Source: Streptomyces sp. NBC_01463
GTDB taxonomy: Bacteria; Actinomycetota; Actinomycetes; Streptomycetales; Streptomycetaceae
Length of the DNA stretch: 64,000 bases
Direction of reading: 5' to 3'
NCBI GenBank assembly: GCA_036227345.1
Contig: CP109468.1
Location: 6,882,001-6,946,000, forward strand
In this document: positions 8,678 to 58,755 of the stretch, one piece after another
How the letters are laid out: each line of letters opens with the position of its first letter
How positions within the stretch are numbered: position 1 is the first letter of the stretch
Made by a program: the position numbers and the translations under genes
The notes under the pieces: generated by a model
Databases searched by the model: none
Seen by the model: the letters and a program-made list of their open reading frames with translations, nothing else
Told to the model about the DNA's origin: nothing

Positions 8678-10129
8678 TCACCGCTGCAGCGCGGCCTTCA
8701 TCATCTTCTGGGCGATCGGGGCCGCGAGGCCGTTGCCGCTGACCTCCGAGGCCGACGAACCCGAGTCCTCCACGATCACGGCGACGGCGACCTCCTGGCC
8801 GCTGGAGTCGTCCTTCGCGTACGAGGTGAACCACGCGTACGGGGTGTTGCTGTTGTCCACACCGTTCTCCGCGGTGCCCGTCTTGCCACCGACCTCGGCG
8901 CCGGCGATCCGGGCGTTGGTGCCGGTGCCGTCCTCCACGACGGTCACCATCGCGCTGCGCAGCTGCTTCGCCGTGGACGAGGACACGATCCGTGTCATGT
9001 CGCCGTCCTCGAAGTCCTCCAGTGTGCCGCCCTCGGCGTCCGTCACCTTGGAGACCATGTGCGGTGCCGCCAGCTCGCCGTCGTTGGCGAGGGCCGCCGA
9101 GACCATCGCGATCTGCATCGGCGTCGCGGTGACCTCGAACTGGCCGATGCCTGTCAGCGCGGTCTGCGCCTTGTCCATCCCGGTCGGGTAGATGCTCTTC
9201 GACGCCCGGACCGGCACATCGAGCTTCTCGGTGTTGAAGCCGAACTTCTCCGCCATCGCCCGCACCTTGTCCTGGCCGAGATCGGCGGCGACCTTGCCGA
9301 AGACGTTGTTGCAGGAGTACTGGAGCGCCACCCGCAGCGTGGCGTTCTCGCAGGGTGCGGAGGCGCTCTCGTTCTTCAGGGGGGTGCTGGTGCCGGGCAG
9401 TGTGTACGGCATCGGGCTCCTGGTCGGCTCGTCGACCGAGCCGTACAGCCCGTCCTCCAGCGCGGCCGACGCCACCACCAGCTTGAACGTCGAACCCGGC
9501 GCCAGCGGCTGCCGCAGCGCCCGGTTGACCAGCGGCTTGTCCGGATCGGCGAGCAGTTTCTTCCAGGCGTCGCCGTCCGTCGTCCCGCTGATGTCCGAGG
9601 GGTCGTACGACGGAGAGGAGACCATGCCGAGGATCTGCCCGCTCTTCGGGTCGATCGCGACGGCCGCGCCCTTGTCGTCCCCGAGCGCGTCGGCCGCCGC
9701 CTTCTGGACGGCCGGGTCGATCGTCGTGAGCACACTGCCGGGCGCGTTCTGCTTGCCGGTCAGCGCGTCCAGCGGGTTCTTCAGCCGGTCGCCGGTGCCG
9801 TCCAGCACATGGCTGTAGATCCCCTCCAGCTGCGTCGAGCCGTAGGCCTGGGAGCTGTAGCCGGTGACGGCCGAGTAGAGGTCGCCGTCCTTGTAGCTGC
9901 GCTTGTACGCGAGATCGCTGCCCTCCGTCCTCTTCGATCCGGTGACCGGGGAGCCGGCCACGATGATGTCCCCGAGCGGCTGCGCGTACTGCGCGATGGT
10001 GTTCCGCCGGTTGTGGTCGTCGTCTGCGAGCGCCCGGGCCTGGTACGCCTGCACCCAGGTCGCCCGCCCCAGAAGGGCGAGGACCAGCAGCAGGGAGAAG
10101 ACCGAGGCGCGCCTGATCGTCTTGTTCAT
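8678..10129 (-). CDS. pbpA: Penicillin-binding protein, class B transpeptidase (PbpA-like)
   Basis: The 483-residue protein has one N-terminal membrane anchor (about 9-27, SVFSLLLVLALLGRATWV), a dimerisation region, and a penicillin-binding domain with all three active-site motifs: SxxK in PGSTFK, SxN in YSCNN and KTG in GGKTGTAE. It cross-links peptidoglycan outside the membrane. Size and the start MNKTIRRA match the actinobacterial PbpA group that usually sits beside the FtsW/RodA-Stk locus; here it stands alone, so it is probably one of several paralogues. ATG 10129 was chosen for position of the anchor; no strong ribosome site is visible. Confidence 0.88.
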   Translation of the reverse strand: MNKTIRRASVFSLLLVLALLGRATWVQAYQARALADDDHNRRNTIAQYAQPLGDIIVAGSPVTGSKRTEGSDLAYKRSYKDGDLYSAVTGYSSQAYGSTQLEGIYSHVLDGTGDRLKNPLDALTGKQNAPGSVLTTIDPAVQKAAADALGDDKGAAVAIDPKSGQILGMVSSPSYDPSDISGTTDGDAWKKLLADPDKPLVNRALRQPLAPGSTFKLVVASAALEDGLYGSVDEPTRSPMPYTLPGTSTPLKNESASAPCENATLRVALQYSCNNVFGKVAADLGQDKVRAMAEKFGFNTEKLDVPVRASKSIYPTGMDKAQTALTGIGQFEVTATPMQIAMVSAALANDGELAAPHMVSKVTDAEGGTLEDFEDGDMTRIVSSSTAKQLRSAMVTVVEDGTGTNARIAGAEVGGKTGTAENGVDNSNTPYAWFTSYAKDDSSGQEVAVAVIVEDSGSSASEVSGNGLAAPIAQKMMKAALQR

Positions 10130-10220
10130 CCCGCTGGAGGGACGAGCGGGACGCCGCGCTCCGTTCCCGGTTGTGCCGCTTCTCACCCATTCCTCATCGA
10201 GGCCGGCCGGGCCGCCGGGG

Positions 10221-10880
10221 TCACCCCGGGGTGATGAATCCCGACTCGTACGCGGCGATGACCGCCTGGGTCCGGTCGCGGGTGCCGGTCTTCGCCAGCA
10301 CGCCCGCCACATGGCTCTTCGCCGTCGCCGGGCCCACCCGCAGCCGGGCGGCGATCTCCGCGTTGGTGAGCCCGGCCGCCATCAGCCGCAGCACGTCCGC
10401 CTCCCGGTCGGTGAGCCTGGCCGCCCAGCGCGGCGCGGCGGACGGCTGCCGCTTCCCGTACTCGGCCGCCAGACCCCGCACCGCCGCGGGGAAGAGCAGC
10501 GAGTCGCTGCGGGCGACCAGGCGCACCGCCTGCACCAGGTCCTCGGCCGCCGCCCGCTTCAGCAGGAAACCCGCAGCCCCGGCCCGCAGGGCCTCGTACA
10601 CGTACGCGTCGTTCTCGAAGGTGGTGACGACGACGACGCGGGGCGCCGGGTCGAGCGTGGCCAGGATCTGTTCGGTGGCGCGGATCCCGTCGGTCTCCGG
10701 CATCCGCACGTCCATCAGCACCACGTCGGGGCGCAGCGCGCGCACCACGGAGACGGCCTCGGCGCCGGTCGCCGCCTCGCCCACGACCTCCAGTCCCTCC
10801 TCCGCGTCCAGGATCACCCGCAGGGCGGTGCGGACCATGCGTTCGTCGTCGGCGAGGACGATCCGGACCGTTGTGCTCAT
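10221..10880 (-). CDS. NarL/FixJ-type response regulator
   Basis: The 219-residue protein has a receiver domain (1-120) with the acidic pocket DD at 11-12, phospho-acceptor Asp 57 in VVLMDVRMPETDG, a Thr in VVTTFEN and a Lys in LLKRA. The C-terminal LuxR helix-turn-helix (about 152-210) reads LTDREADVLRLMAAGLTNAE. It is phosphorylated by the histidine kinase encoded immediately upstream, whose stop overlaps this ATG by 4 bp. Target genes are unknown; the coupled membrane protein is a candidate part of the same signalling unit. Confidence 0.92.
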   Translation of the reverse strand: MSTTVRIVLADDERMVRTALRVILDAEEGLEVVGEAATGAEAVSVVRALRPDVVLMDVRMPETDGIRATEQILATLDPAPRVVVVTTFENDAYVYEALRAGAAGFLLKRAAAEDLVQAVRLVARSDSLLFPAAVRGLAAEYGKRQPSAAPRWAARLTDREADVLRLMAAGLTNAEIAARLRVGPATAKSHVAGVLAKTGTRDRTQAVIAAYESGFITPG

Positions 10881-12127
10881 CGCTGCTCCTGTGCGGGGGT
10901 GTGCAGGGGGACGAGGGCGGTCAGCCGCCAGTGGCCCTCGTGTTCTCCGGCCTCGGTACGGCCGCCGAGCAGGACCGCCCGTTCGGCGATGCCGCGCAGC
11001 CCGCGGCCGCCGCCGGGACGCACCACCGGCGGCCGCCCGGTCAGCGGGCTGGTCATGACGATCTCCAGTTCCGTGGCGCGGACCGTGATCCGCAGCCGCA
11101 CCGGCTTTCCGCGCCCGCCGTGCCGCAGCGCGTTGCTCAGCCCCTCCTGCACGATCCGGTACGCCTCGCGCGACACCGCCGCGGGGACGGCGCCCGGATC
11201 GCCCTCGGTGGTGCGGGAGACGGGCAGCCCGCAGTGCGCCAGCAGTCCGTCCAGCGCGTCGAGCCCCGGCCCCGACGCCGTGTCCGGTGTCCCGTCGTCC
11301 TTGCGCAGCAGGCCCAGGACGGTGTCGAGTTCGCCGACCGTGCGCCGCGTCGTCTCCTCGATCGCGGTCAGCGCGGCCCGGACGAACTCCGGGTCGCTGT
11401 CCAGCACCCGGCGGGCGGCGCCGGCCTGGAGGGTGACGGCGCTCAGCGCGTGGCCGACCGAGTCGTGCAGTTCCCGGGCCAGCCGGTTGCGGACCGCGAG
11501 GCCGGCCGCGCGGCGTTCGGCGGCGGCCAGCCGGTCGTCGGGCGTCGGGCCGAGCAGCGCCGGCGCCCGGTCCGCCAGCAGCGCCCCGGCCGCCGCCGCG
11601 CAGCAGGCCAGCGCCACCAGCATCGCGATCCCGGCGAGCGGCGCCAGGGCGATCACCCAGGTCCGGTCCAGCGCCTCGGGCAGGCCCCGCACCGGCGAGT
11701 CCCGCACGGCCGTGAGGAGCGGCAGCCCGATGACCCCCACCGCGAACGGGGTCAGAGCCAGCGTCATGCCGCTGATGATGCCGCCGAGCATGACGTGCAG
11801 GGTGAACCAGGCGGCCGAGCGGACCCGGGCCTGCCGGGTCCTGGCCGGCCCGTCGGCGAGCTGCCGGTCCGGCGGCAGGCCGCACAGGGCGCGGGCGACG
11901 GCCGCCGAGAGCGGCCGGGCGAGCGGGAGGAGCGCGGTGACCGCGGCCATCGGCAGGGCGAAGGCGAACGCGGTCAGCTGGCTGACCGGTGAGGTGAAGA
12001 CGTCGGCGTCCGGGCTGGACGCGCCGACGATGACCGTGCCGACGAGGAAGTACGGCATCAGCAGGGCGCCGCCGATGATCAGGTGCAGCCAGCGCAGCCG
12101 GGCCCGCCGCCCGATGAGCGGGGTCAC
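10877..12127 (-). CDS. Membrane sensor histidine kinase (NarL partner)
   Basis: The 416-residue kinase starts with four to five membrane helices (about 14-190), then the HisKA_3 dimerisation helix with the phosphorylated His in LARELHDSVGHALS, and a HATPase_c domain with N-box EGLSNALRHGG and G-box GGGRGLRGIAERA. It lacks an obvious extracellular sensor, so sensing is likely intramembrane. GTG 12127 overlaps the upstream stop (GTGA) and gives a start just before the first helix; a longer in-frame extension upstream lies inside the neighbouring gene and is rejected. It transfers phosphate to the following response regulator. Confidence 0.9.
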   Translation of the reverse strand: MTPLIGRRARLRWLHLIIGGALLMPYFLVGTVIVGASSPDADVFTSPVSQLTAFAFALPMAAVTALLPLARPLSAAVARALCGLPPDRQLADGPARTRQARVRSAAWFTLHVMLGGIISGMTLALTPFAVGVIGLPLLTAVRDSPVRGLPEALDRTWVIALAPLAGIAMLVALACCAAAAGALLADRAPALLGPTPDDRLAAAERRAAGLAVRNRLARELHDSVGHALSAVTLQAGAARRVLDSDPEFVRAALTAIEETTRRTVGELDTVLGLLRKDDGTPDTASGPGLDALDGLLAHCGLPVSRTTEGDPGAVPAAVSREAYRIVQEGLSNALRHGGRGKPVRLRITVRATELEIVMTSPLTGRPPVVRPGGGRGLRGIAERAVLLGGRTEAGEHEGHWRLTALVPLHTPAQEQR

Positions 12128-13227: not shown

Positions 13228-14568
13228 TCAGACGAGTTCGGGCTGCAGCTCCGGCCGGCGCACCGGCGCCGCCTTCGGTTCCCACTGCCTGGTGGTCCGC
13301 ACGTACCCGTAGACCACCGAGGCCGTCGCGAGCATGAGCAGCGGGCCGGACAGCCACGGGTGGTCGCCCAGTTGGGTCGGCAGATAGCGGGTGGCCACCA
13401 GGATCGCGGCGAAGACCGTGGTGCCGTAGGCGACCAGCCGGGTCGCGGACCGGTCCCAGCCGCGTTCGAGCGAGCGCAGGGCCGTCTCGATCGTGACGGT
13501 GAAGATCACGCCGGTGATGATGTCGATGCCGTAGTGGTAGCCGAAGCCCAGTGTCGCGGCGAGCGTGGCGACCAGCCAGAACGCGCCCGCGAACCGCAGG
13601 TACCAGGGGCCCTTGCGGGAGTGGATGAAGATCGTGGTGGCCCAGGCCGTGTGCAGGCTGGGCATGCAGTTGCGCGGGGTGATGCCGTCGAACGGCATGT
13701 GCTGCGGAACGCCGTGCGGCGGCATCGTGTCGGGCCAGATGTTGGCCATGGCCCACTGCCCGCCGTCCGCGCCGTAGGCGAAGACCGGTCCGACGACCGG
13801 GAAGATCATGTAGATGGCCGGTCCGAGGAGGCCTATCACCAGGAAGGTGCGCACCAGGTGGTGGGACGGGAAGCGGCGCTCGTCCGCCACGTTGCGCAGC
13901 TGGTAGAGCGCGACGACGACCGCGGCCACCGCGAGCTGGGTGTAGACGGAGTTGAGGAAGTGCTCGCCGAACGATCCGGTCGCCCGGACCATCCGGCCCA
14001 CCAGCCACGAGGGGTTGCCCAGCGCGTGGTCGGCGGTCGCCACGTACTGGTCGAGCACCAGCGGGCGGGTCTTCGAGGTGATGAGCAGCCAGGTGTCACC
14101 GGTCTTGCGGCCGGTCACCAGCAGCAGGCCCAGCCCGACGCCCTTGAGCAGCAGGACGCGTTCGCGACCGGTGCGGCGTGTGACGGCGATCACCGCGCAC
14201 CCCAGGATCACCCACAGAGCGCCGTTCCCGAAGGGATGGCCCTGGGTCACCGGGGCGTCGGCCACCCAGCGCACCAGCAGGATCACGAGGTCGATGCCGA
14301 TCGCGGTCCCCACCGCGATGAACCGCTGCCGCCAGGTGAGCACCACCAGCATCAGCCCCATGCTGGCGTACAGCAGGAACCCCGAGGCGGGGGCGAATAT
14401 CACCTCGCGCGCCTGGCTGGCGATGGGTCCCGGCAGACCGTAGTGGCGTGCGGCGAATTCCAGGGCGACGAGGAATCCGATGCCCACCACCGCCGCCGCG
14501 GCCCACAGCGCCGCTTGCGGCCGACGCCATGAGGTGAACGCATTTCGGCTGGTTATTCGCGAAAACAC
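13228..14568 (-). CDS. PAP2-superfamily phosphatase / inositolphosphotransferase-like membrane protein
   Basis: The frame encodes about ten membrane helices and ends with the Aur1/Ipt1-like PAP2 signature: CMPSLHTAWATT (catalytic His after SL) and YHYGIDIITG (second His with Asp). Family members dephosphorylate or transfer lipid phosphates such as undecaprenyl or phosphatidate. The start is uncertain: GTG 14568 (446 residues) coincides with the onset of normal Streptomyces codon use, whereas ATGs at 14688 and 14700 would add 40-44 residues from an AT-richer stretch. None has a clear ribosome site, so a leaderless start is possible. It stands alone; the role is inferred only from the family. 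Confidence 0.82.
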   Translation of the reverse strand: MFSRITSRNAFTSWRRPQAALWAAAAVVGIGFLVALEFAARHYGLPGPIASQAREVIFAPASGFLLYASMGLMLVVLTWRQRFIAVGTAIGIDLVILLVRWVADAPVTQGHPFGNGALWVILGCAVIAVTRRTGRERVLLLKGVGLGLLLVTGRKTGDTWLLITSKTRPLVLDQYVATADHALGNPSWLVGRMVRATGSFGEHFLNSVYTQLAVAAVVVALYQLRNVADERRFPSHHLVRTFLVIGLLGPAIYMIFPVVGPVFAYGADGGQWAMANIWPDTMPPHGVPQHMPFDGITPRNCMPSLHTAWATTIFIHSRKGPWYLRFAGAFWLVATLAATLGFGYHYGIDIITGVIFTVTIETALRSLERGWDRSATRLVAYGTTVFAAILVATRYLPTQLGDHPWLSGPLLMLATASVVYGYVRTTRQWEPKAAPVRRPELQPELV

Positions 14569-14891
14569 CCGCGATGCTATAGGTATCAAGTGTTTGGCCG
14601 ATTTGTTAGTTGTGGTCGGATAGGTCGCACTTGGCGTCGGACCGTACGTTTTTCCGGTGCGGAGCGGGCGATGAGGGCGGTCGCCCATGAATTCGAGCAT
14701 GTTATCGGAGCGGTCCGCGGGGGCCCTGGTCACGGGCGGTACGAGGGCGGACCGGGGCGGAGCCCGACAGTCCGGATCGGCCGTCCGGACAAGGGAGTCG
14801 GGGGCGCCGGGGCCCGTCGGCGCAGGGCGGACCGTGAGCGACGACACACGCCGCGCGGTCCCGCCGCTTCAGGGGCGACCGGGGCGCCGCC
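14569..14891. other. Intergenic stretch upstream of the PAP2 gene
   Basis: About 320 bp without a convincing gene. Its proximal 120 bp (14569-14690) is clearly AT-richer than the surroundings and contains TTGATA and TATAGC-like steps on the minus strand; it probably holds the PAP2 promoter, or an N-terminal extension of that protein. The distal part is GC-rich and featureless. Confidence 0.4.
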
Positions 14892-15016
14892 TCAGGGGCG
14901 GCCGCCGGGGCCCTCGCCGGTGAAGGCGGACGCGGGGACCGGCTCGGGGCCGGACATCCGGACGGAGAACAGCGGCAGGCCGCTCTCCCGCGCCTCGCGC
15001 AGACCCGCTTCCAGGG
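14892..15016 (-). pseudogene. Coding-like tail without a start codon, downstream of the IclR gene
   Basis: Directly after the IclR stop, a different minus-strand frame runs to a TGA at 14892-14894 and reads EAGLREARESGLPLFSVRMS, then PEPVPASAFTG to a Pro-rich end. About 40 consecutive codons have over 90 percent G or C in the third position, as in true Streptomyces genes, yet no ATG, GTG or TTG lies in frame within a usable distance. It looks like the 3' remnant of a lost gene. The family is not recognised; a chance effect of GC-rich DNA is possible. Confidence 0.35.
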
Positions 15017-15787
15017 TCAGAGCCTCCGGGTCGCGAGGGTCAGCCGGTCGCGCGCGTCGAACAGGGCGTCCTTGACCATCTGTTCGTGCGCGGGGGTCAG
15101 CCGGGCGACCGGCACCGAGCAGCTGATGGCGTCACGGGCCGGGGTGCGGTACGGGACGGCGACGCCGAAGCAGCGCAGCCCCAGCGTGTTCTCCTCGCGG
15201 TCCACGGCGTAGCCCTGCTCGCGGATCAGGTGCAGCTCCTCGATGAGCTTCTCCCGGTCCGTCAGGGTGTGTTCGGTGAGCGCGGGCAGCGTCTCGGGCA
15301 GCATCTTGCGCACCTGCTCGTCGCTGTGGGTGGCCAGCAGGGCCTTGCCGAGCGAGGTCGAGTGCGCGGGCAGCCGGCGGCCGACGCGGGTGAAGGGGCG
15401 CAGGTAGTGCTGGGACTGCCGGGTGGCGAGGTACACCACGTTCGTCCCGTCGAGACGGGCGAGGTGGATGGTCTCCGTGGTGTCGTCGGAGAGCCGGTCC
15501 AGGGTGGGGCGGGCCGCCGCGACCACCTCGTCGCCGTCGATGTACGAGGTGCCGACCAGCAGCGCCCGCACCCCGATCCCGTACCGGGTCCCGGTCGCGT
15601 CCGTCTCCACCCAGCCCAGCTCGACCAGGGTGCGCAGCAGCATGTAGAGGCTGGACTTGGGGTATCCGACCGCTTCCTGCACCGCGGCGAGCGAGTGCAT
15701 GCCCGGCCGCCCGGCGAAGTACTCCAGCAGCTCCACCGTCCGTACCGCGGACTTGACCTGTGCCCCACCAGACTCGGCAACCGACAT
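15017..15787 (-). CDS. IclR-family transcriptional regulator
   Basis: The 256-residue protein has an N-terminal winged helix (about 12-75; SAVRTVELLEYFAGR, then VGYPKSSLYMLLRTLVELGW) and a C-terminal IclR effector domain (85-250) with the typical HSTSLGKALLA and ENTLGLRCFGVAVP segments that bind small organic acids. It is divergent from the aldehyde dehydrogenase gene; a palindrome lies between them. It is inferred to repress sugar-acid (glucarate, galactarate or uronate) catabolism and to be released by an acid intermediate. ATG 15787 follows GGGGCGTAGGG; an in-frame start at 15811 is an alternative. Confidence 0.88.
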   Translation of the reverse strand: MSVAESGGAQVKSAVRTVELLEYFAGRPGMHSLAAVQEAVGYPKSSLYMLLRTLVELGWVETDATGTRYGIGVRALLVGTSYIDGDEVVAAARPTLDRLSDDTTETIHLARLDGTNVVYLATRQSQHYLRPFTRVGRRLPAHSTSLGKALLATHSDEQVRKMLPETLPALTEHTLTDREKLIEELHLIREQGYAVDREENTLGLRCFGVAVPYRTPARDAISCSVPVARLTPAHEQMVKDALFDARDRLTLATRRL

Positions 15788-22925: not shown

Positions 22926-25490
22926 ATGTCTGCGACAGGTGGCATATCCGCGTACGGAGGCGTAGGACCCGCTCCCGGGGCGGGGCGCCGTGAGCTGCCG
23001 CGCGCCATGGGGGCGGCACGGCTGCTGCTGCATGTGCTGTTCGGCGCCACCCTGCTGGGCGCCGTCGGCCTGGCGGGGTCCGCGCTCGCCGCCGACGCGC
23101 TGGACGGCGTCGTGGTCGGGCTGCTGCTGTACGGGGCCGTGCCCGGTGTCGTGGGCTGGCTGCTCTCGCGGCGGGTGTGGACCGGTGGCCGGGGCGTCTG
23201 GGGCGGACTCGTCGCCGTACAGGCGTGGTTGATCATCGGTGGCGCGGCCAACGCCGCCGACGGGTCGATGCACGGCTTCACCCAGATATTCCTGCCGGTG
23301 CTGATCCTGGTGTTCCTGAGCCGGCCGGACAGCCGCGCGTGGTTCCGCCTGCCGGCGCGCGAACGCGAGGACAAGCCGGACTTCTCGCTCCCGCACATGA
23401 TCACGTGGCGCCGCGACCGTGGACAGTCGGCCCTGGAGTACGTGGGCCTGGTCATGCTCGTCGCGGCCATCGTGGTGGCGTTGCTGCTGAGCGGCGTGGG
23501 CGGCCCGATGGCGGACCGCTTCCAGGCCGCTGTCTGCTCCGTCACGGGCACGTCCTGCCCGGCCAAGGGCAGCGGAACGGTGAACGCGGGCGACTCCGCG
23601 GGCGGCGCGACCGCGGGCGGCGCGGAGACCGGGGGCGCCGACGCGGGCGCCACGGTCGTCGGCGGCGCGGACGGGGGAGGCGAGAACGGCGGCGCCGGTG
23701 GTGCGAACGGCGGCGAGAACGGCGGCGCCGGTGGTGCGAACGGCGGCGCCGGTGGTGCGAATGGTGCGGCCGGGGGTGCGAACGGCGGCGCCGGTGGCGC
23801 CGATGGCAGTTCCGGTGGTGCGAACGGTGCGGCCGGCGGGACCACCGGGGGCGACTCCACCGGAGGCGCCGGCGGACCGGCCGGGGCGGACACCACCGGG
23901 GGATCGGACACCGCGGGCGGCTCCGACACCGCCGGGGGCGCCGACGCGACCGGCGGTACGGGCGGCCCCGACGGGCCCGGCAGCGACACCTACCCCGAGA
24001 CCGCGGACGAGCCCGAGGCCGACTACGACGACATCCCCGCGTCCGGCGAGGACGACTCGGGGGACTCCGGCGACTCCGACGACGGTGAGGACAAGGAGGA
24101 CTGCGGCGGCTGGGGCTTCTTCGGCTGCGCCTGGGACCGCGGCACGCAGGTCGTCAAGGGCGTCTTCGTGGACGGCATCTGGGGCGACGTGACCGGGGTC
24201 ATCGACCTCTTCAAGCCCTCGACCTGGTCCGGCATCGTCGACTACGGCAAGCAGCTCGGCAGCCAGTGGGCGGACGACGCCAAGGACGCCGGCAGCAAGT
24301 GGGACAAGGGCGACTACCTGGGAGCGTTCGGCGACTGGGGCAAGGCCTCGCTCAACACCGTCGTCAAGGTCGGCGACGACATGTTCGTCGGCGACGACGT
24401 GCGCGAGCGGTGGAACAACGGGGAGAAGACCCGCGCCGTCACCGACGTCGTGTGGAACGTCGGCTCCCTCTTCATCCCCGGGTACGACGTCGCGAAGGTC
24501 ATCGGCAAGACCAGCAGGCTCGGCAAGATCGGGAAGATCGCCGCCGACGTGGCGGAGGCCGCCGAGGACGCGGGCGCCGCCTCGCGCCGGGCCCGCAAGG
24601 CCGCCGAGGCCGGGGACGTCGACGGAGCCCGCAAGGCGGCCAAGGAGGCCGACGACGCCGCCGACAAGGCCGAGGACTCGGCCCGTAAGACCGGCTGCTC
24701 CATCGCCTCCGGACCCCTCGGGCCCAGGACCCGCTACGGCGGCACCGGTGTCGCGGGTGCGGGGACCGGAGTGCTCGCCGCCGGACCGCCGGACCATGTG
24801 ATCCTCGCCGACGACGGCTGCGACAAGGCCGCCGAGGCCAAGGCGAAGGAGGCCCGCGACCAGGAGCGCGCCGCCTGGACCGACAAGAAGCGCGCCGAGG
24901 AGAAGGACCGCGCCGCCAAGGCGCTGGAGAAGAAGAAGCCGTGGCCGGACGCCAAGCGCAACGACAGCTCCGACCCGCGGAACTACAACCCGCCGAAGTG
25001 GGCGGACGATCTGAAGGACCCGGAGCTCGGCTCGGCCGACGCGGGCGACGGGTTCTGGGGGAGCCGTGACCGCAACCCCAAGCCCAACTGGAAGAACGAG
25101 TCCTGGCTCCGCTACCAGGAGCAGATCACCGGCACCAACCGCGGCAAGGAGTACATCGTCGCCAACCCCAAGGAGGGCAAGCCTCCGGTGGAGTACGACG
25201 GGTGGGACTCCGGACGGCAGACGTTCCTGGAGGCGAAGAACGGCTACAAGAGCTACCTGACGAAGGGCGACAAGGGGACGCTCACCAAGTCCGGCCGGGA
25301 GAAGTTCGTCAAGGAGGCGACGGAGCAGGTCAGCGCCTCCGGCGGCCGTGCGATCGAATGGCACTTCTCCGACCCGGACGTGGCCAAGGCCGCCCGGAAG
25401 GCCTTCCGTGAGGAGGGGCTTCCGATCAAGGTCGTCTACAGCAAGCAGAACCCGGAGAAGAGCACGAGGAAGGCCGGGGCCTTCGACTAG
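22926..25490 (+). CDS. Polymorphic toxin: membrane helices, Flp-prepilin-like segment, Gly-rich linker, Tox-REase-5 nuclease
   Basis: The 854-residue protein is modular. Residues about 33-130 form four hydrophobic helices. Residues 160-190 read RRDRGQSALEYVGL followed by a hydrophobic stretch, matching the Flp (type IVb) prepilin signature G/XXXXEY with Gly 166, Glu 171 and Tyr 172. About 222-348 is a Gly/Ala/Asn/Asp repeat linker, 350-390 is acidic, and 500-690 is a helical Ala/Lys/Glu-rich region. The last 140 residues (WLRYQEQITGTNRGKEY, then EYDGW and FLEAKNGY) match the Tox-REase-5 nuclease; Asp 758, Glu 769 and Lys 771 form the PD-(D/E)XK core. It is inferred to be a surface-delivered DNA-targeting toxin; the immunity gene follows. 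ATG 22926 has GGGGAG 6 bp upstream. Confidence 0.82.
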   Translation: MSATGGISAYGGVGPAPGAGRRELPRAMGAARLLLHVLFGATLLGAVGLAGSALAADALDGVVVGLLLYGAVPGVVGWLLSRRVWTGGRGVWGGLVAVQAWLIIGGAANAADGSMHGFTQIFLPVLILVFLSRPDSRAWFRLPAREREDKPDFSLPHMITWRRDRGQSALEYVGLVMLVAAIVVALLLSGVGGPMADRFQAAVCSVTGTSCPAKGSGTVNAGDSAGGATAGGAETGGADAGATVVGGADGGGENGGAGGANGGENGGAGGANGGAGGANGAAGGANGGAGGADGSSGGANGAAGGTTGGDSTGGAGGPAGADTTGGSDTAGGSDTAGGADATGGTGGPDGPGSDTYPETADEPEADYDDIPASGEDDSGDSGDSDDGEDKEDCGGWGFFGCAWDRGTQVVKGVFVDGIWGDVTGVIDLFKPSTWSGIVDYGKQLGSQWADDAKDAGSKWDKGDYLGAFGDWGKASLNTVVKVGDDMFVGDDVRERWNNGEKTRAVTDVVWNVGSLFIPGYDVAKVIGKTSRLGKIGKIAADVAEAAEDAGAASRRARKAAEAGDVDGARKAAKEADDAADKAEDSARKTGCSIASGPLGPRTRYGGTGVAGAGTGVLAAGPPDHVILADDGCDKAAEAKAKEARDQERAAWTDKKRAEEKDRAAKALEKKKPWPDAKRNDSSDPRNYNPPKWADDLKDPELGSADAGDGFWGSRDRNPKPNWKNESWLRYQEQITGTNRGKEYIVANPKEGKPPVEYDGWDSGRQTFLEAKNGYKSYLTKGDKGTLTKSGREKFVKEATEQVSASGGRAIEWHFSDPDVAKAARKAFREEGLPIKVVYSKQNPEKSTRKAGAFD
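23590..23970 (+). repeat. Gly/Ala/Asn-coding repeat array in the toxin linker
   Basis: Within the toxin gene, irregular tandem copies of units such as GGCGGCGCCGGTGGTGCGAA encode GGAGGANG-type repeats (strongest at 23685-23845), grading into GGSDTA units. The degeneracy suggests slippage-driven growth. Functionally it is a flexible linker between the pilin-like segment and the cytotoxic part. Confidence 0.8.
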
Positions 25491-25497
25491 CCTGGGG

Positions 25498-25527
25498 CGC
25501 CCCGGGCCCGGTGTGCGGCCCGGGGCG
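25498..25527 (+). terminator. 11-bp hairpin between toxin and immunity genes
   Basis: Arms CGCCCCGGGCC (25498-25508) and its complement (25517-25527) flank an 8-nt loop in the 72-bp gap. It may attenuate transcription from the toxin promoter or protect an mRNA end, which would let toxin and immunity levels differ. A separate promoter for the immunity gene was not recognised. Confidence 0.5.
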
Positions 25528-25562
25528 GGACCGACGACGGATCACAACGGTGGAGGCAGGAC

Positions 25563-26282
25563 ATGCGACGTGTGGTGCGAGGCTTCTGGGGTCCCCGGAA
25601 GGAATCGCCCCTGGAGCTCGCGGGACGCTGGAAGACGATGCTGGACGCCCTTCCCGCACTGCTTCCGGCAGCCGGCCCCGCCACCGCCGGGGAGCCGTGG
25701 ACCTGGACGCACCACCACGCGTCCGGCAGCCCCACGGAGCTCCGGCCCGACGAGGCCGCGCTGGCCGCCGCGCTCCAGGCCGACCACGACTCCCCGCAGA
25801 CCTCGGACGGGGCCGGTCTCAGCCTGGCGGTCACGGGTGAGCCGGGCTGGGAGGTCGCGGTCTCCGGGCGCGGCGGCGGGGAATCGGAGTACGTGACCCA
25901 GGCGGTCGTGCTCACGGTCGTCTCCCCGGACGGGGCCGAGGTCGGCGAAGCCGCCCTCCTCGCGCTGATCGCGGACACCTGGCAGCCGGACATCGGCGAT
26001 GTCACCGACGACGACCTGCTGGACGCCCTGGAGGACGACGCCGGCTACGACTACACCCGCTCCGAACTGTGCGTGGGCCGGCTCGGCTACCTCTCCCCGG
26101 GCCGGGCGGCGCTCGTCCCCGACGGAGTGGGAGCGGTCGGCAAGGAGCCGGTCGGCGCGGGTCTGCTCCTGGACATCGCACCCCCCGGGGACACCGGGGC
26201 CGTGGTGGACGCCTATGTGCGCCTGCGCGACGCCGGCGCACTGGAGCCCCTGCCCCGCCCGATGAACCGCACGTACCTCTAG
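25563..26282 (+). CDS. Immunity protein, Imm52-like
   Basis: The 239-residue soluble protein begins MRRVVRGFWGPRKESPLELA, the WGxRxES pattern that opens Imm52-type immunity proteins, and continues with the LLPAAGPATAGEPWTWTH region expected after it. It has no signal or membrane helix, so it acts in the cytoplasm of the producer. Imm52 is known as a partner of Tox-REase-5 toxins, and here it follows such a toxin by 72 bp. It is inferred to bind and neutralise that nuclease. The start has GGAGG 8 bp upstream. Confidence 0.8.
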   Translation: MRRVVRGFWGPRKESPLELAGRWKTMLDALPALLPAAGPATAGEPWTWTHHHASGSPTELRPDEAALAAALQADHDSPQTSDGAGLSLAVTGEPGWEVAVSGRGGGESEYVTQAVVLTVVSPDGAEVGEAALLALIADTWQPDIGDVTDDDLLDALEDDAGYDYTRSELCVGRLGYLSPGRAALVPDGVGAVGKEPVGAGLLLDIAPPGDTGAVVDAYVRLRDAGALEPLPRPMNRTYL

Positions 26283-46865: not shown

Positions 46866-47264
46866 ATGGACCAGACCACAGACCCGGCCACGCCGGACGA
46901 AGCGGCGCCGGAGTCCCTCTTCGAGCAGATCGGCGGCGCCGGAGCCGTCGCCGCCGTGGTGGACATCTTCTACGCACGCGTTCTGGCCGACCCCGAGCTG
47001 ACCGCCTACTTCGCGGGCAAGGACGTCACCCGGCTCAAGGCCCACCAGCGGCTCTTCGTCGGCAGCGCCCTCGGAGCCACGACCCCCTACACCGGCCGGG
47101 CCATGGGCCGCGCCCACCAGGAACTCGCCATCACCGGGCCCCACTTCGACCGCGTCGTGGACCACCTCGCCGCCGCACTGACCGACGGCGGCGTCGATCC
47201 CGCCACCATCGGCGTGATCGCCGCCAAGCTCGCCCCGCTCAAGCCGGACATCGTCAGCGGCTGA
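46866..47264 (+). CDS. Group 1 truncated haemoglobin
   Basis: The 132-residue protein has the 2-on-2 globin pattern: SLFEQIGGAGAVAAVVDIFY with the B10 Tyr at the end, a Gly-Gly near helix A, and the proximal His in MGRAHQELAITGPHFD, as in mycobacterial trHbN. Group 1 members bind O2 and detoxify nitric oxide. ATG 46866 was chosen; upstream in-frame sequence is not globin-like. Its 3' end overlaps the convergent cobC gene by 11 bp. Confidence 0.9.
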   Translation: MDQTTDPATPDEAAPESLFEQIGGAGAVAAVVDIFYARVLADPELTAYFAGKDVTRLKAHQRLFVGSALGATTPYTGRAMGRAHQELAITGPHFDRVVDHLAAALTDGGVDPATIGVIAAKLAPLKPDIVSG

Positions 47265-48357
47265 CCGCGGACAGCACCTGGAGCGCCTGGTCGAACGCCT
47301 GGAGGAAACGGTTGGTCGTCGTACGGTCCCGGACGGCCAGCCGCAGCCACTCGGTGCCGAGCCCGGGGAACGTGTCGCCGCGCCGGGCCGCGAAGCCCAG
47401 CAACCGCAGCCGCTCGCGTATCTCCGCGGCCCCCTCCAGCCGGACCAGCACGAACGGCCCCTGGGCCGGCTCCACCACCCGTATCTCGGTGAACTCCCGC
47501 AGACCCGCGACCAGATGGCAGCGGTCCACCGCGATCCGGTCCGCGGCCGCCGCCGCCTCGGCCAGTGCCCGCGGCTCCATGCACGCCTCGGCCGCCGCCA
47601 GCGCCGGCGACGACACGGGCCACAGCGGCTGCGCCTCCTCCAGCAGCCGCACGGTCTCCGGCGCGGCCGCCACGTACCCGATCCGCAGCCCGGCCAGCCC
47701 CCACGTCTTGGTGAGGCTGCGCAGCACCACGAGCCCGGGGACGTCCGTACGGCCGCACAGCGCCTCGCGCTCGCCCGGCACCGCGTCCATGAACGCCTCG
47801 TCGACCACCAGCGTCCGCCCGGGGCGCGCCAGCCGCTCCAGCACGGCCGCGGGATGCAGTACGGACGTCGGGTTGGTCGGATTGCCGACGACCACCAGGT
47901 CCGCGTCCGCAGGCACATCGGCCGGGTCCAGCCGGAAGCCGTCCCCGGCCCGCAGCAGCACCCGTTCCACCTCGTGCCCGGCAGCGCGCAGCGCCGACTC
48001 GGGCTCGGTGAACTGAGGATGGACCACGACCGGGCGGCGGGCCGGCAGGGCCCGGGCGATCAGCACGAACGCCTCCGCCGCACCGGCCGTCAGCAGCACT
48101 CGCTCCGCAGGCAGCCCGTGCCGTGCGGCGACCGCCGCACGCGCCTGACGCCCGTCCGGATACGCGGCGAGCGCGCCCAGGGACGCGGCTATCCGCTCCT
48201 TCAGCCAGGCCGGTGGGGTCCCGGCCCGTACGTTGACGGCGAGATCGGTCAGATCCCGGCCCCGTCCCCGTACCTCCGCGTCACCGTGGTGCCGCAGATC
48301 GTGCGCGCCCGCGCCTGTGGCGCCGGGGCGTTCAGTGGGAGTGTGCATGACCGCCAT
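47254..48357 (-). CDS. cobC: CobC-like PLP enzyme (threonine-phosphate decarboxylase / histidinol-phosphate aminotransferase family)
   Basis: The 367-residue fold-type I PLP protein has LLTAGAAEAFVLIARAL, the PLP segment VVVGNPTNPTSVL, VVDEAFMDAVPGE and the Lys in LRSLTKTWGLAGLRIGY, as in CobC/CobD proteins of actinobacteria. It supplies aminopropanol phosphate (or its precursor) for the cobalamin nucleotide loop. ATG 48357 lies inside the end of cbiX, overlapping it by 26 bp; a second in-frame ATG at 48348 is possible. It is the last gene of the cobM-cobL-cobJ-cbiX-cobC block. Confidence 0.85.
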   Translation of the reverse strand: MAVMHTPTERPGATGAGAHDLRHHGDAEVRGRGRDLTDLAVNVRAGTPPAWLKERIAASLGALAAYPDGRQARAAVAARHGLPAERVLLTAGAAEAFVLIARALPARRPVVVHPQFTEPESALRAAGHEVERVLLRAGDGFRLDPADVPADADLVVVGNPTNPTSVLHPAAVLERLARPGRTLVVDEAFMDAVPGEREALCGRTDVPGLVVLRSLTKTWGLAGLRIGYVAAAPETVRLLEEAQPLWPVSSPALAAAEACMEPRALAEAAAAADRIAVDRCHLVAGLREFTEIRVVEPAQGPFVLVRLEGAAEIRERLRLLGFAARRGDTFPGLGTEWLRLAVRDRTTTNRFLQAFDQALQVLSAVSR

Positions 48358-49243
48358 GGTGGGGGTGGTGGTGATGGCCGTCGTCGTCAGGGTGGAAGTG
48401 CGGCTGCTGCGGCAGTCCCACCTTGTCCTCGAAGCCCGGCAGTGCGATCCGGTACACGCAAGAGTCGCAGTTCATCCGCAGATCGCCCTTGACTGCCTCC
48501 CGGTAGCGCTCCATGACCAGATCGAGCAGTTCCTCAGCGGCACCGATCACCTCGGCCGACCGGACGTCCAGCTCCGCATGGGCGGCGGCCCACTCCTCGG
48601 TCTGGTGACGCACCCGGTCCGGCAGGATGCCGGTGAAGAGGAAGTACGGCAGAACGACTATGCGCCCCGCACCCAGCTTCACGCAACGGTCGAGACCGGA
48701 CGGCACGTCGGGGGCGGCCAGCGAGACGAACGCCGTCTCCACACCCGCGTAGCCCCGCCCCTCCCAGAACAGCCGCGCCGCCTTGTACACCTCGGCGTTG
48801 GCGTCCGGATCGGTGGAGCCACGCCCCACCAGCAGGACCGTCACCTCGGACCGGTCGGTGTCGCCCAGCACCTCGTCGACCCGCCGCTCCAGCACCTTCA
48901 GCAGCCCCGGGTGCGGGCCGAGCGGACGCCCGTAGGTGTACGAGATGCCCGGGTGGCGCTCCTTCTCACGGGTCAGCGCCGCCGGGATGTCGCCCTTGGC
49001 GTGACCGGCCGACACCAGCATCAGCGGGACGGCGGCGAAGTGCTTGACGCCCTGCTCGACGAGTTCGGTCACCGCGTCGCCCAGCGGCGGCGGCGACAGC
49101 TCGATGAAGCCGCCCGCGACGGGCAGCCGCGGGTTGCGGGCGCCGAGCTCGGCCACGAAGTCACGGAAGGCGGCTGCCCCGCCCTCGTCCCGGGTGCCGT
49201 GGCCGGCGATGAGCAGTGCGGGCTGGGCGGACGGGGTGTTCAC
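48332..49243 (-). CDS. cbiX: CbiX-like sirohydrochlorin chelatase
   Basis: The 303-residue protein is a two-domain CbiX: the first domain holds the metal His in LLIAGHGTRDEGG and the second VLLVGRGSTDPDAN, where the matching His is replaced. MNCDSCVYR is a Cys pair seen in long CbiX forms, and the C-terminus is a His-rich tail (HFHPDDDGHHHHPHHGG) that could buffer cobalt, nickel or zinc. It inserts cobalt or iron into sirohydrochlorin. GTG 49243 has GAGGAG 5 bp upstream. The gene sits 53 bp after cbiG-cobJ. Confidence 0.9.
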   Translation of the reverse strand: MNTPSAQPALLIAGHGTRDEGGAAAFRDFVAELGARNPRLPVAGGFIELSPPPLGDAVTELVEQGVKHFAAVPLMLVSAGHAKGDIPAALTREKERHPGISYTYGRPLGPHPGLLKVLERRVDEVLGDTDRSEVTVLLVGRGSTDPDANAEVYKAARLFWEGRGYAGVETAFVSLAAPDVPSGLDRCVKLGAGRIVVLPYFLFTGILPDRVRHQTEEWAAAHAELDVRSAEVIGAAEELLDLVMERYREAVKGDLRMNCDSCVYRIALPGFEDKVGLPQQPHFHPDDDGHHHHPHHGGHAHSH

Positions 49244-49296
49244 GGATTCTCCTCGGTGTTCATGGGGGGTGGTGCGGTGCGGTGCGGCGGGCCGGT

Positions 49297-51021
49297 TCAC
49301 GGGGCCGGCCGCGGAGCGGGCGCGGCGGTGGCGGACTGCCAGCGGTAGCCGCGCGGGGTGACCATGCGGCCCGCGATCTCACGGGTGGCCGTGTTGCCCA
49401 CGGTGACGACGGTCATCATGTCGACCACCGCCGGGTCCAGCGCAGCCAACGACGTGACCAGGCTGCTCTCGTCGGGCCGCGAGGCATTGCGTACGACTCC
49501 GACCGGGGTCGCCGGGTCGCGGTGTCCGGCCAGGATCGACAGCGCCTTCGGGAGCTGCCAGTCACGGCCCCGGCTGCGCGGGTTGTAGAACGTCACGATG
49601 ATGTCGGCCTCGGCGGCGGCCCTGACCCGGCGCTCGATGACCTCCCACGGCGTGTGCAGGTCGGACAGGCTGATCGAGACGTGGTCGTGGCCCAGCGGGG
49701 CGCCCAGGATCGCGGCGGCCGCCAGCGCGGCCGTCACCCCCGGCACACCCACCACGTCGATGTCGGCGCCCGCCTCGGCGAGCGCGGGCGATGCCATCGC
49801 GTACACCCCCGCGTCACCACTGCCGATCAGCGCCACCGCATGCCCCTTGCGGGCCTCGGTGACCGCCGTGCGGGCCCGCTCCTCCTCGGCGCCGAGCCCC
49901 GACTCCAGGACCGTGGTGCCGGGCCGCAGCAGGTCCCTGATCTGGTCGACGTACTGATCGAGCCCGACCAGCACCGACGCCCGCCGCAGCTCCTCCCGGG
50001 CGCGCGGCGTCAGCAGATCGCGGGCACCGGGCCCGAGCCCGACGACGGCGAGCCGGCCGCGCGGGGCCCTGCGCACCACCGCGCAGGTGGCCATCGCCGC
50101 CCGCCCCTCCGGCCGCGACTTCCGCTTCGGCACCAGCAGTTCACCGCCGCCGGCGAGCGCGGCGGCCTCCGCGACCGAGGGCGTGCCGACGGCGGCGAGC
50201 GGCGCTTCGGACGGATGCGGCACCTCGATCCGGGCCAGCTCGTCGGCCGGGTACGTCCGCAGCGGCACCCCGAGACCGGCGGCGGCGGCCACGATCCCGG
50301 GCTCCCCGGCCTTCGCGTCCACGGTCACCAGCTCCGCGACGCTCAACGGCGAGAGCCCGGCGTCCTCCAGCGCCTCCCGGACCAGCCCGAGCACCTCGTC
50401 GGCGGGCGCGTCCTTGGAAGCCCCGACCCCGACGGCGAGCGAGGCCGGCCGCAACACGGCCTCCCGCGAACCGAGTCCGACGACGCGGTCGGTGATGTGC
50501 AGCACCGCGGACCCGGCGGCGCCGGGGCTCACGTTCGGCGGCAGAGCGGGCAACGGCCGCACCACGTCGGCCCGCAGCGTCACCGGAGCACCGTCGAGCA
50601 TCGCCCGCGACACCCCCGCGACATCCCCCTCCACGGGGAGCCCCAGCGTGTCCAGACCGGGCACGCCCACCGCGTCCGTCGCCGTCGTCACCACCGGCGC
50701 CGCGCCCAGCACCTCGCCGACCGCGACCGCCAGGACGTTCGCCCCGCCGCCGTGCCCGCCGAGCAGCGCCACCGCATGGCGCCCCGCCTCGTCGACACAG
50801 ACGACGCCCGGGTCCGCCGCCTTGTCCACGAGCAGCGGTGCCACCAGCCGCACCACGGCCCCCGTCGCGAGGAAGCACACCAGCTGCTCGCACTCGGCGA
50901 ACGCGCGCCGCACGGCCTCGCCCACCGGACCGTCGTAGACCACGGCACGGCCGGGCCAGGCCGAGGCCAGCCGGTCACGGGCGACGGCACCCGCCGCCGT
51001 CGCGGAGATCAGGCCGATCAC
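49297..51021 (-). CDS. cobJ: CbiG-CobJ fusion: cobalt-precorrin-5A hydrolase plus precorrin-3B C17-methyltransferase
   Basis: The 574-residue protein has CbiG N-terminal (1-130; LVCFLATGAVVRLVAPLL), linker and C-terminal (210-320; VGVGASKDAPADEVL) domains, then a full CobJ/CbiH methyltransferase (from LAVVGLGPGARDLLTPRA, with the SAM motif ALIGSGDAGVYAM and VTFYNPRSRGRDWQL). CobJ contracts and methylates the macrocycle at C17; CbiG opens the delta-lactone. GTG 51021 overlaps the cobL stop by 4 bp. The fusion is common in actinobacteria. Confidence 0.93.
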   Translation of the reverse strand: MIGLISATAAGAVARDRLASAWPGRAVVYDGPVGEAVRRAFAECEQLVCFLATGAVVRLVAPLLVDKAADPGVVCVDEAGRHAVALLGGHGGGANVLAVAVGEVLGAAPVVTTATDAVGVPGLDTLGLPVEGDVAGVSRAMLDGAPVTLRADVVRPLPALPPNVSPGAAGSAVLHITDRVVGLGSREAVLRPASLAVGVGASKDAPADEVLGLVREALEDAGLSPLSVAELVTVDAKAGEPGIVAAAAGLGVPLRTYPADELARIEVPHPSEAPLAAVGTPSVAEAAALAGGGELLVPKRKSRPEGRAAMATCAVVRRAPRGRLAVVGLGPGARDLLTPRAREELRRASVLVGLDQYVDQIRDLLRPGTTVLESGLGAEEERARTAVTEARKGHAVALIGSGDAGVYAMASPALAEAGADIDVVGVPGVTAALAAAAILGAPLGHDHVSISLSDLHTPWEVIERRVRAAAEADIIVTFYNPRSRGRDWQLPKALSILAGHRDPATPVGVVRNASRPDESSLVTSLAALDPAVVDMMTVVTVGNTATREIAGRMVTPRGYRWQSATAAPAPRPAP

Positions 51022-52274
51022 TGGATTGCTCCTTCACTTGCACCGGCCGCGGAGCGGACGCCCCACAGCAGAAAGACCGGATTGGCCGCCGCGAGCCGGG
51101 TCACGTCACCGGGCAGCGGCGCCAGCCGCGACGACTGCAGCAGCACACCCTCGGGCACGAACCCGGCACCGGCCAGCGCCGACCGCACCGGCCCGACCCG
51201 GTCCAGGGCCGCCACCGCGACCACCACGGCCCGCCGCGCCCGCCGGGCGCACGCCGTCACGATCGCGGGCAGGTCGTGCCCGCCGCCCCCGACGAACACC
51301 GCGTCGGGGTCCGCCAGATCGGACAGCACTATCGGCGCGGCCCCGTGCACCGCCCGTACGTACACACCGTGCGCGGCGGCGTTCGCGCGGATCCGCTCGA
51401 CCCCGTCCGCCGTCTTCTCGACGGCCACGGCGGCAGCGCCGAGCCGCGCGCACTCCACCGCCACCGATCCCGAACCGGCACCGATGTCCCACACCAGATC
51501 TCCCGTACGCGGCCCGAGCCGGGCCAGCGCCAGCGCCCGCACCTCGAACTTGGTGATCATCGAGTCGCGGTGCTCGAACTCCGCCTCGTCCAGCGCCCAC
51601 CCGGCCGGACCGGCGGCCGGACCGCCCACCGTCCGCACCGGCGACAGGGCCCTCGACTCGTCCAGGCACAGCACCACGCTCACCGGGTCAGGCCACTCCC
51701 GGTCCGCCGCCTCCCGCAGCGTCAGCCGCTCGACGCGCTCGCGCTCCGGATCCCCGAGCGCCGTCGCGACGACCAGGGTCCGCTCCCCGCTCCGGTACAG
51801 CAGCCCCGCCGCCAGCTCCGCGGGCCCGGCACCGGGACCGGTCAGCACCGCGACCTTGGGGTGCGCGAAGCACACGTTCACCGCGGTGCGCGGATCACGC
51901 CCGTGCGCGCTGACGACGACCGCGTCGTCCCACGGCAGTCCCAGCCGGGCGAACGCCACCGCGATCGACGGCGCACCCGGACGCACATCGAGCGCCGCCG
52001 GACCGAACCGCTCGGCCAGCGCCCGCACGATCCCGAAGAACCCCGGATCGCCGGAGGCCAGCACGACCACCCGCGCCCCGTCATCGGCGAGGTGCTTCCC
52101 GATCCGGTCGAGCGCGGGGGCCAGCGGCCCCAGCACCAGCCGCCCGGCGCCCGCGGGCAGCGCGGCGCCGTCCAGATGGCGCCGGGCCCCGACCACCAGC
52201 GTGGCCCCGGCCAGCTCCCGCACGGCGTCGGGGCAGAGCGGCGCCCCCGTCCCCGTACCGAAGACCCGGATCAC
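51018..52274 (-). CDS. cobL: Precorrin-6Y C5,15-methyltransferase, CbiE-CbiT fusion
   Basis: The 418-residue protein joins a CbiE-type tetrapyrrole methylase (1-200; VVVLASGDPGFFGIVRAL) to a CbiT-type Rossmann methyltransferase and decarboxylase (220-418; SAM motif DLVWDIGAGSGSVAVECA). It methylates C5 and C15 and decarboxylates the C12 acetate. GTG 52274 overlaps cobM by 4 bp and its stop overlaps cobJ by 4 bp, so the three are tightly coupled. Confidence 0.94.
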   Translation of the reverse strand: MIRVFGTGTGAPLCPDAVRELAGATLVVGARRHLDGAALPAGAGRLVLGPLAPALDRIGKHLADDGARVVVLASGDPGFFGIVRALAERFGPAALDVRPGAPSIAVAFARLGLPWDDAVVVSAHGRDPRTAVNVCFAHPKVAVLTGPGAGPAELAAGLLYRSGERTLVVATALGDPERERVERLTLREAADREWPDPVSVVLCLDESRALSPVRTVGGPAAGPAGWALDEAEFEHRDSMITKFEVRALALARLGPRTGDLVWDIGAGSGSVAVECARLGAAAVAVEKTADGVERIRANAAAHGVYVRAVHGAAPIVLSDLADPDAVFVGGGGHDLPAIVTACARRARRAVVVAVAALDRVGPVRSALAGAGFVPEGVLLQSSRLAPLPGDVTRLAAANPVFLLWGVRSAAGASEGAIQ

Positions 52275-53119
52275 GAGCCGGACCGCTGGGCGCGCAACTC
52301 GGCCCGGGCCGCCTTGTCCGCCTTGCGGTACCCGTGGAAGTGGCCCGGGTGGTAGAGGTGCGAACGGGTCCCCGACGCCGACAGGGCCGGGCCGACCAGG
52401 AAGAGCGTGTGCTTCCAGAGCTTGTGCTCCTTGACCGTGGCCTCCAGCGTCTCGATCGTGCAGTGCAGGATCAGCTCCTCCGGCCAGGTCGCCTGGTACG
52501 CGATCACGACCGGCGTGGACGTCGGGTAACCGCCCTCCAGCAGCTCCTGCGTCAGCTGACCCGACCGGGCCGCCGACAGGAACAGCGCCATCGTCGTGCC
52601 GTGCCGGGCGAACTCCCGCACCTCCTCACCGGGCGGCATCGGCGTCTTGCCGCCGCCGAGCCGGGTCAGGATCACCGACTGCGCCACCTCCGGGATCGTC
52701 AGCTCGCGCTGCGCGATGGCCGCGACCGCCGAGAACGACGACACCCCGGGCACGATCTCGACCGCGACCCCCAGCTCGCCGCACCGGTCGACCTGCTCCT
52801 GGGTGCCGCCCCACAGCGCCGGGTCACCGGAGTGGATGCGCGCCACCTTCAGCCCCTCGTCGCCCGCCCGCCGGTAGACGGCGACGACCTCTTCGAGGGA
52901 CATCTGCGCCGAGTCGAGGATCTCCGCACCCTCCCGGGCGTGTTCGAGGACCTCCTCCTGCACGAGGCTGGCCGCCCAGATGACGATGTCGGCGTCCGCG
53001 ATGGCCCGCGCCGCCCGGAAGGTCAGCAGATCGGCGGCGCCGGGTCCGGCACCGACGAACGTCACGGTGCCGCGGGTGGGCGCGGCGACTGCGCCGGCTG
53101 CGTCGACTGCTTCGGACAT
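52271..53119 (-). CDS. cobM: Precorrin-4 C11-methyltransferase
   Basis: The 282-residue tetrapyrrole methylase has VTFVGAGPGAADLLTFRA at the N-terminus, the SAM loop ARIHSGDPALWGGTQEQ, and VSSFSAVAAIAQRELTIP with ILTRLGGG, the pattern specific for CobM/CbiF. It methylates C11. ATG 53119 follows AAAGGA by 8 bp. It starts a five-gene block and is divergent from the ZIP transporter, with 77 bp between starts. Confidence 0.94.
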   Translation of the reverse strand: MSEAVDAAGAVAAPTRGTVTFVGAGPGAADLLTFRAARAIADADIVIWAASLVQEEVLEHAREGAEILDSAQMSLEEVVAVYRRAGDEGLKVARIHSGDPALWGGTQEQVDRCGELGVAVEIVPGVSSFSAVAAIAQRELTIPEVAQSVILTRLGGGKTPMPPGEEVREFARHGTTMALFLSAARSGQLTQELLEGGYPTSTPVVIAYQATWPEELILHCTIETLEATVKEHKLWKHTLFLVGPALSASGTRSHLYHPGHFHGYRKADKAARAELRAQRSGS

Positions 53120-53196
53120 GGGACGGGTCCTTTCGAGAACGTGGAACGTGGGATTCGGGGATGCGCGCACCGGGGTCAATCGGCTAGCAAGAGCCC

Positions 53197-53919: not shown

Positions 53920-53924
53920 CCGCC

Positions 53925-58733: not shown

Positions 58734-58755
58734 AAGACCTCCTTGGGGGAACATT

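Follow-up and report, generated by a model that had tools for sequence, protein, structure and literature searches.

A Streptomyces toxin-immunity gene pair with a four-helix leader and a putative Flp-type prepilin signal

We analyzed a 64,000-nt stretch of the Streptomyces sp. NBC_01463 genome (GenBank assembly GCA_036227345.1, contig CP109468.1, positions 6,882,001 to 6,946,000; hereafter the window); the host genome comprises 9.07 Mb in two contigs. Two neighboring genes in the window encode a predicted nuclease-type toxin and a putative immunity partner, and the toxin carries, behind four N-terminal membrane helices, a segment that resembles the signal of Flp (Tad-type) prepilins (Table 1). 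A sequence-only reading of the window had described the two genes as a toxin-immunity pair with an unusual N-terminus, and both frames, of 854 and 239 aa, were recovered.

Table 1. Coordinates of the gene pair and of the features of the toxin, in window positions
Feature	Position	Strand	Remarks
Toxin gene	22926..25490	+	854 aa, ATG at 22926; four-helix leader, Flp prepilin signal, Gly-rich linker, helical region, Tox-REase-5
Four membrane helices	23001..23318	+	Residues 26-131; precede the prepilin signal; kin to stand-alone small membrane proteins in the genus
Putative Flp/class III prepilin signal and fifth membrane helix	23412..23498	+	Residues 163-191; predicted cut G166/Q167 (23423/23424)
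Cys204 and Cys211	23535..23558	+	Invariant in 69 sequences; just past the fifth helix
Gly-rich low-complexity linker	23559..24035	+	Very low model confidence
Conserved, mostly helical region	24102..24935	+	Residues 393-670, from linker to toxin; no Pfam match at E up to 1
Tox-REase-5 domain	25104..25373	+	Residues 727-816; D758, E769 and K771 invariant
Partner (putative immunity) gene	25563..26282	+	239 aa, Imm52/TsiT-like

The C-terminal domain of the toxin scores 66.5 bits (E-value 3.2e-18) with the Pfam Tox-REase-5 model, whose cut-off is 25. No other Pfam domain, PrsW, WXG/LXG, RHS, PAAR/VgrG and ALF included, came up at E up to 1 in a scan of the whole protein, in agreement with the sequence-only reading, which had seen no common delivery module at the N-terminus. 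The same reading had placed Asp758, Glu769 and Lys771 in this domain and a long Gly-rich linker ahead of it. D758, G759, E769, A770 and K771 are indeed invariant in a 39-sequence alignment of the window protein and 38 of its 81 close relatives, and the linker contains a Gly-rich repeat at about 23596-23956. Where the active-site motif given in the available portion of PMC3482391 has FDG and EAK, the window protein reads YDG and keeps EAK. The predicted fold of the domain matches TseT, from the solved Pseudomonas TseT-TsiT pair. The domain is predicted to be a nuclease-type toxin with an intact active site. The close relatives of the protein are, among those listed, all from Streptomyces.

The downstream gene had been read as Imm52-like, and we retain this name because the window protein itself does not reach the Pfam cut-off (E 0.017, 15.2 bits against 25). 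Of its relatives, 27 of the 30 scanned members (30 of the 35 such genes were taken into the alignment) match Imm52 at E up to 0.1, with a best E-value of 1.5e-10. The predicted fold of the partner resembles TsiT (6jdp; E 6.6e-6, probability 1.00) at a moderate TM of 0.54. Its highest 19-residue hydropathy is only 1.25, so it has no clear membrane segment. Across the loci that we fetched by matches to residues 1-225 of the toxin, an Imm52-like frame lies downstream, within 3 kb, of 35 of 36 Tox-REase-5 carriers. The pairing of the two families, which the sequence-only reading had named, is tabulated in the portion of PMC3482391 that was available. A second small gene without a Pfam match (family F3; L040:6584-7093 (+) and 24 other loci) follows the immunity gene, overlapping it by 4 bases in most relatives; it is not called in the window, and its product is perhaps a second immunity protein. 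At L095 (5051-11773), opposite-strand genes, one of 955 aa, separate a toxin from its immunity gene.

The N-terminal part of the toxin is less conventional. Hydropathy places hydrophobic stretches at residues 33-51, 62-80, 90-108 and 113-131, and AlphaFold2 models helices at 26-55, 61-86, 89-111 and 115-131, in agreement with the four helices reported from the sequence alone. A fifth hydrophobic stretch (173-191; AlphaFold2 helix 169-188, at low confidence) lies within the Flp-like segment, which reads RRDRG/QSALEY, followed by the hydrophobic helix. In the rule for Flp pilins (PMC3244431, in the part available), E and Y occupy positions +5 and +6 past the cleavage site. Because the segment fits this rule, with G at -1, E171 at +5, Y172 at +6 and a helix from about +7, we regard it as a putative class III prepilin signal. 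It shares 49% identity over 45 residues with the 77-aa Flp pilin of the same genome (pairwise E 1e-15) and 56% over 55 residues with a second large protein of that genome (L076). Moreover, when residues 1-150 served as the sole query, 69 of 69 proteins obtained had a G-x4-E-Y motif no more than 60 residues past the match; this test is not fully blind because the loci themselves had been fetched with residues 1-225. G166, Q167, E171, Y172, G174, C204 and C211 are invariant across the 69. These results place the Flp-like segment, as the sequence-only reading had named it, beyond chance resemblance.

The Pfam Flp_Fap model (PF04964) gave no match to the window toxin at E up to 1; five sister carriers scored E 0.01-0.054, all below cut-off, as did the genome's own Flp pilin (E 0.0082). 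Flp pilins are usually small, with short leaders. Since the leader here is 166 aa long with four helices, and the whole protein 854 aa, we call the protein prepilin-like rather than an Flp pilin.

We then compared 93 carriers of >300 aa, picked in the fetched loci by the prepilin motif itself. By crude hydropathy, three or four leader helices are present in 42/51 members of family F0 (eight of the others have two and one has none) and in 13/13 of family F2, while 13/15 members of the short-leader family F8 have no leader helix. The Cys pair behind the signal, which may form a disulfide on the outer side of the membrane, is found in 87/93 carriers (51/51 F0, 13/13 F2, 15/15 F8, 4/4 unassigned and 4/10 F28); the six without it are all F28 proteins.

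The four-helix part also occurs without the prepilin signal, in stand-alone proteins of 191 aa (L165:2803-3378 (-)) and 173 aa (L166:3686-4207 (+)) with Pro-rich N-termini and no Pfam family. The L165 protein is 31% identical to residues 14-143 over 143 columns and stops at the point where the similarity stops, which suggests that the leader was once a free membrane protein and became fused ahead of the signal. The L166 protein adjoins OmpA-family and DUF192 genes (named by eye). Among the matches listed, three weaker ones to residues 1-225 cover the four-helix part without the motif (genomes G026, G076 and G093); those other than G026 are the stand-alone L165 and L166 proteins. In G026 (L164) the four-helix frame is interrupted (2556-2912, -) and sits beside Flp, TadG-like and OmpA genes, some of them named by eye; it looks like a decayed carrier in a Tad slot.

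What follows this N-terminus varies. The last 170 residues of the 93 carriers form 12 clusters (CT), and Pfam scans of cluster representatives returned Tox-REase-5, ADPrib_exo_Tox, Scabin-like, XOO_2897-like deaminase and Abhydrolase_8 domains, as well as PT-HINT with several tails, one of which is Tox-REase-5. Among the representatives scanned, no named Pfam domain was found in CT2 or in part of CT3, a mixed cluster joined partly through shared HINT sequence. The downstream gene family switches with the toxin type, and for several carriers none is called nearby; the seven non-Imm52 downstream families that were scanned had no Pfam match over cut-off. Across the genus (199 genomes), 35 matches to the Tox-REase-5 model were obtained; among those listed, 30 of the 35 lie in Flp carriers, as judged by comparing their places and frames with the N-terminal matches and the L052 frame. 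Counted among the 30 is a relative in G005 (L098; G005:C1:5438552 and 5440689) with its N-terminal and toxin parts in separate open frames of 508 and 593 aa, which may be a broken copy.

The sequence-only reading had proposed a polymorphic toxin system and had held that homologues without toxin variety would speak against it. We found one N-terminus joined to differing C-termini and downstream genes, and the view that the constant N-terminus is a reusable carrier of such a system is well supported. The genome of the window also encodes further large proteins with an Flp signal. One is a second four-helix carrier (L075, G000:C1:4250000-4265000, at 9123-11459 (-)) of cluster CT1, a cluster whose scanned member has Abhydrolase_8 and whose 13 copies share neighbors and look less toxin-like. 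Another is the short-leader L076 protein (G000:C1:3275000-3294000, at 14018-15565 (-)), which has PT-HINT and a different C-terminus and lies about 4 kb from the A24 peptidase gene.

One family, F28, has a conserved C-terminus and two leader types: three or four leader helices are predicted in 7/10 members and none in 3/10. Across the two types, the parts after the predicted cleavage glycine are 31-36% identical in alignments that start at residue 1 or 2 and run through to the end. The leaders themselves share a stretch of at most 11 residues (E 0.03-0.2), a comparison with little power given that the helix-free leaders are 20-41 residues long. An exchange at the predicted cut is as expected if the leader is removed. 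F28 loci are L077:5717-7216 (+), L040, L052, L053, L068, L072, L074, L084, L094 and L113; the two copies read end in YCAR or YCAK, and a lipoprotein-like gene often lies behind them (by eye). Within the same system, F28 proteins possibly act as an adhesin or a structural tip. Along these lines, all of these proteins could be ordinary modular minor pilins, adhesins or extracellular enzymes, whose C-terminal domain does not serve as a toxin. The F28 and Abhydrolase_8 C-termini, alike in 10 and 13 loci, may be such. For the window protein we consider this highly improbable, as it has an intact predicted nuclease active site, a TseT-like fold and the Imm52-like partner seen in 35/36 cases.

Many carriers are encoded in Tad loci. 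One block (L105 and L106 read together) runs through genes for a histidine kinase, a LuxR-type regulator, an Flp pilin, a TadE/G-like protein, a lipoprotein-like protein and an OmpA-family protein, and continues with the carrier, an immunity gene, DUF192 and an A24 prepilin peptidase. Among the matches listed, 74 four-helix matches (E up to 4.3e-21) occur in 50/246 genomes, and 33 of the 74 lie within 20 kb of an OmpA or A24 gene. On contigs of >1 Mb, which hold 46 of the 74 (the partial match G068:7354699 was left out), 19 carriers lie within this distance, in 19 of 32 genomes, compared to 0.55 expected and never more than 5 in 20000 random placements; the 19 stand for fewer independent events, because related genomes inherit the locus. 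In the fetched loci, an Flp, TadG-like, OmpA or A24 gene is present within 10 kb of 41/93 carriers, a count that can miss genes where the fetched stretch is short, and such neighbors were seen for members of CT0, CT2, CT3, CT4, CT5, CT7, CT9, CT10 and CT11. Large Flp-only proteins, 38 of which were picked by hand among the matches listed in the 50 marker-searched genomes, lie within 20 kb of a marker in 30 cases, some being F28 proteins and not toxin carriers. The genome of the window has genes for T2SSE (TadA), two T2SSF (TadB/C), RcpC/CpaB, a ParA-like (TadZ-like) protein, OmpA, Flp and A24.

In addition to this shared inheritance and the short F28 leaders, several observations weigh against a processed, Tad-borne toxin. 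Prepilin leaders are usually short, and we know of no processed prepilin leader with four membrane helices. AlphaFold2 confidence at residues 161-200 is low (pLDDT 42-48). The other 41 of the 74 carriers, including that of the window, have no Tad marker within 20 kb, and 14 of these are on contigs without either marker. In the fetched stretches, no member of CT1 (13), CT6 (2) or CT8 (1) has a Tad gene at a distance of 10 kb or less. Between the window toxin gene and the Tad locus of its genome there are 3.6 Mb, and for its closest relatives (G179, G166 and G204) the distance is 3.4-3.8 Mb, so Tad use by this protein is a matter of homology. An A24 gene is also present in 20/20 genomes without a carrier match, so A24 co-occurrence is not evidence. 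The Flp-like segment could also be just a membrane anchor or insertion signal, with the toxin freed by another protease and without the Tad machinery. The distant carriers fit this explanation, as do the four helices, which already anchor the protein, and PT-HINT, an autoprocessing domain, in some sister carriers; however, an anchor has no need of the invariant G, E at +5 and Y at +6. Since it also leaves the F28 leader exchange at the cleavage site and the enrichment at Tad loci unexplained, we regard the anchor explanation as possible but unlikely.

We lean, with moderate confidence, towards a polymorphic toxin-immunity pair that uses an Flp (Tad-type) prepilin as its trafficking module. The domains, the toxin and partner folds, the motif, the C-terminal variety, the frequency at Tad loci and the F28 exchange support this reading. 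The precursor would be inserted in the membrane, where an A24 prepilin peptidase may cut after G166 on the cytoplasmic side and remove the four-helix leader. The product would be a large modular minor pilin consisting of the Flp helix, a flexible linker and a nuclease domain outside the membrane, which the Tad machinery may display on the hyphal surface or release from it. The nuclease domain would then enter a neighboring cell and damage its DNA, and kin would be protected by the cytoplasmic Imm52-like protein blocking the nuclease, as TsiT does TseT. Insertion and A24 cleavage are suggested by the sequence features; for export, Tad dependence, target entry, killing and protection, we extrapolate from the protein families. 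On this analysis, the "unfamiliar route" of the sequence-only reading is narrowed to an Flp-type (class III) prepilin signal akin to that of Tad pili.

The pair might also act within its own cell, as an anti-phage or abortive-infection device, given that the PADLOC models PDC-M17A and PDC-M17B match the toxin (best 8.6e-19) and the partner (3e-8). Those labels denote candidates, however, and the toxin matches span only residues 702-840. The leader and prepilin signal would place the nuclease outside the membrane, and the same carrier bears many kinds of C-termini, so we give this explanation very little credence.

To assess how widely the carrier occurs, we surveyed the family and the phylum, scoring at most 11 and 7 candidates per genome, respectively, such that absences are soft. 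At E up to 1e-25, the four-helix carrier turned up in 29/249 genomes of the family, in 1/17 genera. Among 396 genomes sampled from the phylum, its own genus alone yielded matches that take in the four helices. Large proteins that have just the signal are present in other families, where it is joined to PT-HINT (L156), to a calpain-like cysteine protease (L152:397-1755 (-), in another family of actinobacteria) or to Abhydrolase_8 (L160).

Around the pair itself, the upstream neighbors encode a DJ-1/AraC-type regulator and a GNAT acetyltransferase, and the downstream neighbor a DsbA-like protein; no pilus genes are among the nearest neighbors. Further along the window (47254-63998), a mostly minus-strand run of genes appears cobalamin biosynthesis-like, judging by eye from the gene calls.

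More broadly, we tentatively propose, at somewhat less than even odds, that the Streptomyces Tad pilus is a contact-dependent toxin-delivery machine, in which interchangeable Flp-type minor pilins, from precursors with four-helix or helix-free leaders, would each bring a different toxin to the pilus and have the cognate immunity gene next to them. If Tad pili do display toxins, a widespread Streptomyces locus gains a function, pilus biology is tied to interbacterial warfare in a monoderm, and a delivery route is added outside the known secretion types, one that the short-leader form would extend to other Actinomycetota. Two points would then be directly open to test: processing by an A24 peptidase behind a leader of four helices, and transfer of the nuclease into a neighbor by a pilus.

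The pair suggests a surface-carriage route for toxins of which we found no description: among the top-ranked open-licence papers, none reported polymorphic toxins that have immunity genes and ride on Flp or Tad components. The umbrella toxins of Streptomyces are reportedly polymorphic toxins acting between Streptomyces, as proposed here, but are secreted particles, and to our knowledge they have no prepilin signal. The nearest toxin pair is TseT-TsiT (PA3907-PA3908) of Pseudomonas aeruginosa, which shares the toxin and immunity folds and the combination of Tox-REase-5 with Imm52; TseT, however, is a type VI secretion system effector, whereas the window toxin belongs to a monoderm, hyphal bacterium and is borne by four helices plus an Flp prepilin-like part. 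Polymorphic toxins at large (Zhang et al. 2012, PMC3482391, in the portion available) likewise combine a constant N-terminus with variable C-terminal toxins and adjacent immunity genes. They are sorted by exit route, and the routes given there for Tox-REase-5 are the type II, V and VI secretion systems and PrsW; an Flp prepilin is not among them, and the terms "pilin", "pilus", "Flp" and "TadE" are absent from the first 300,000 of the 357,715 characters of that paper. Modular type IV pilins (PilB, PMC8179133; monoderm review, PMC6916266) also graft a small pilin module to a large functional one, but were gathered by means of the IPR012902 signal, and the parts of these sources available name mostly binding functions and mention no immunity genes. 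In the available part of the work on Myxococcus Kil/Tad pili (Herrou 2025, PMC12075869), a Tad-type pilus with processed minor pilins bearing bulky variable domains mediates contact killing; its exchangeable tips serve predation, and Tip4 is said to carry or associate with its own toxic activity. An immunity gene beside a toxin domain is not described in that part, and its tips are KilN/TadG-like, whereas the carriers described here have an Flp-like signal and monoderm hosts.

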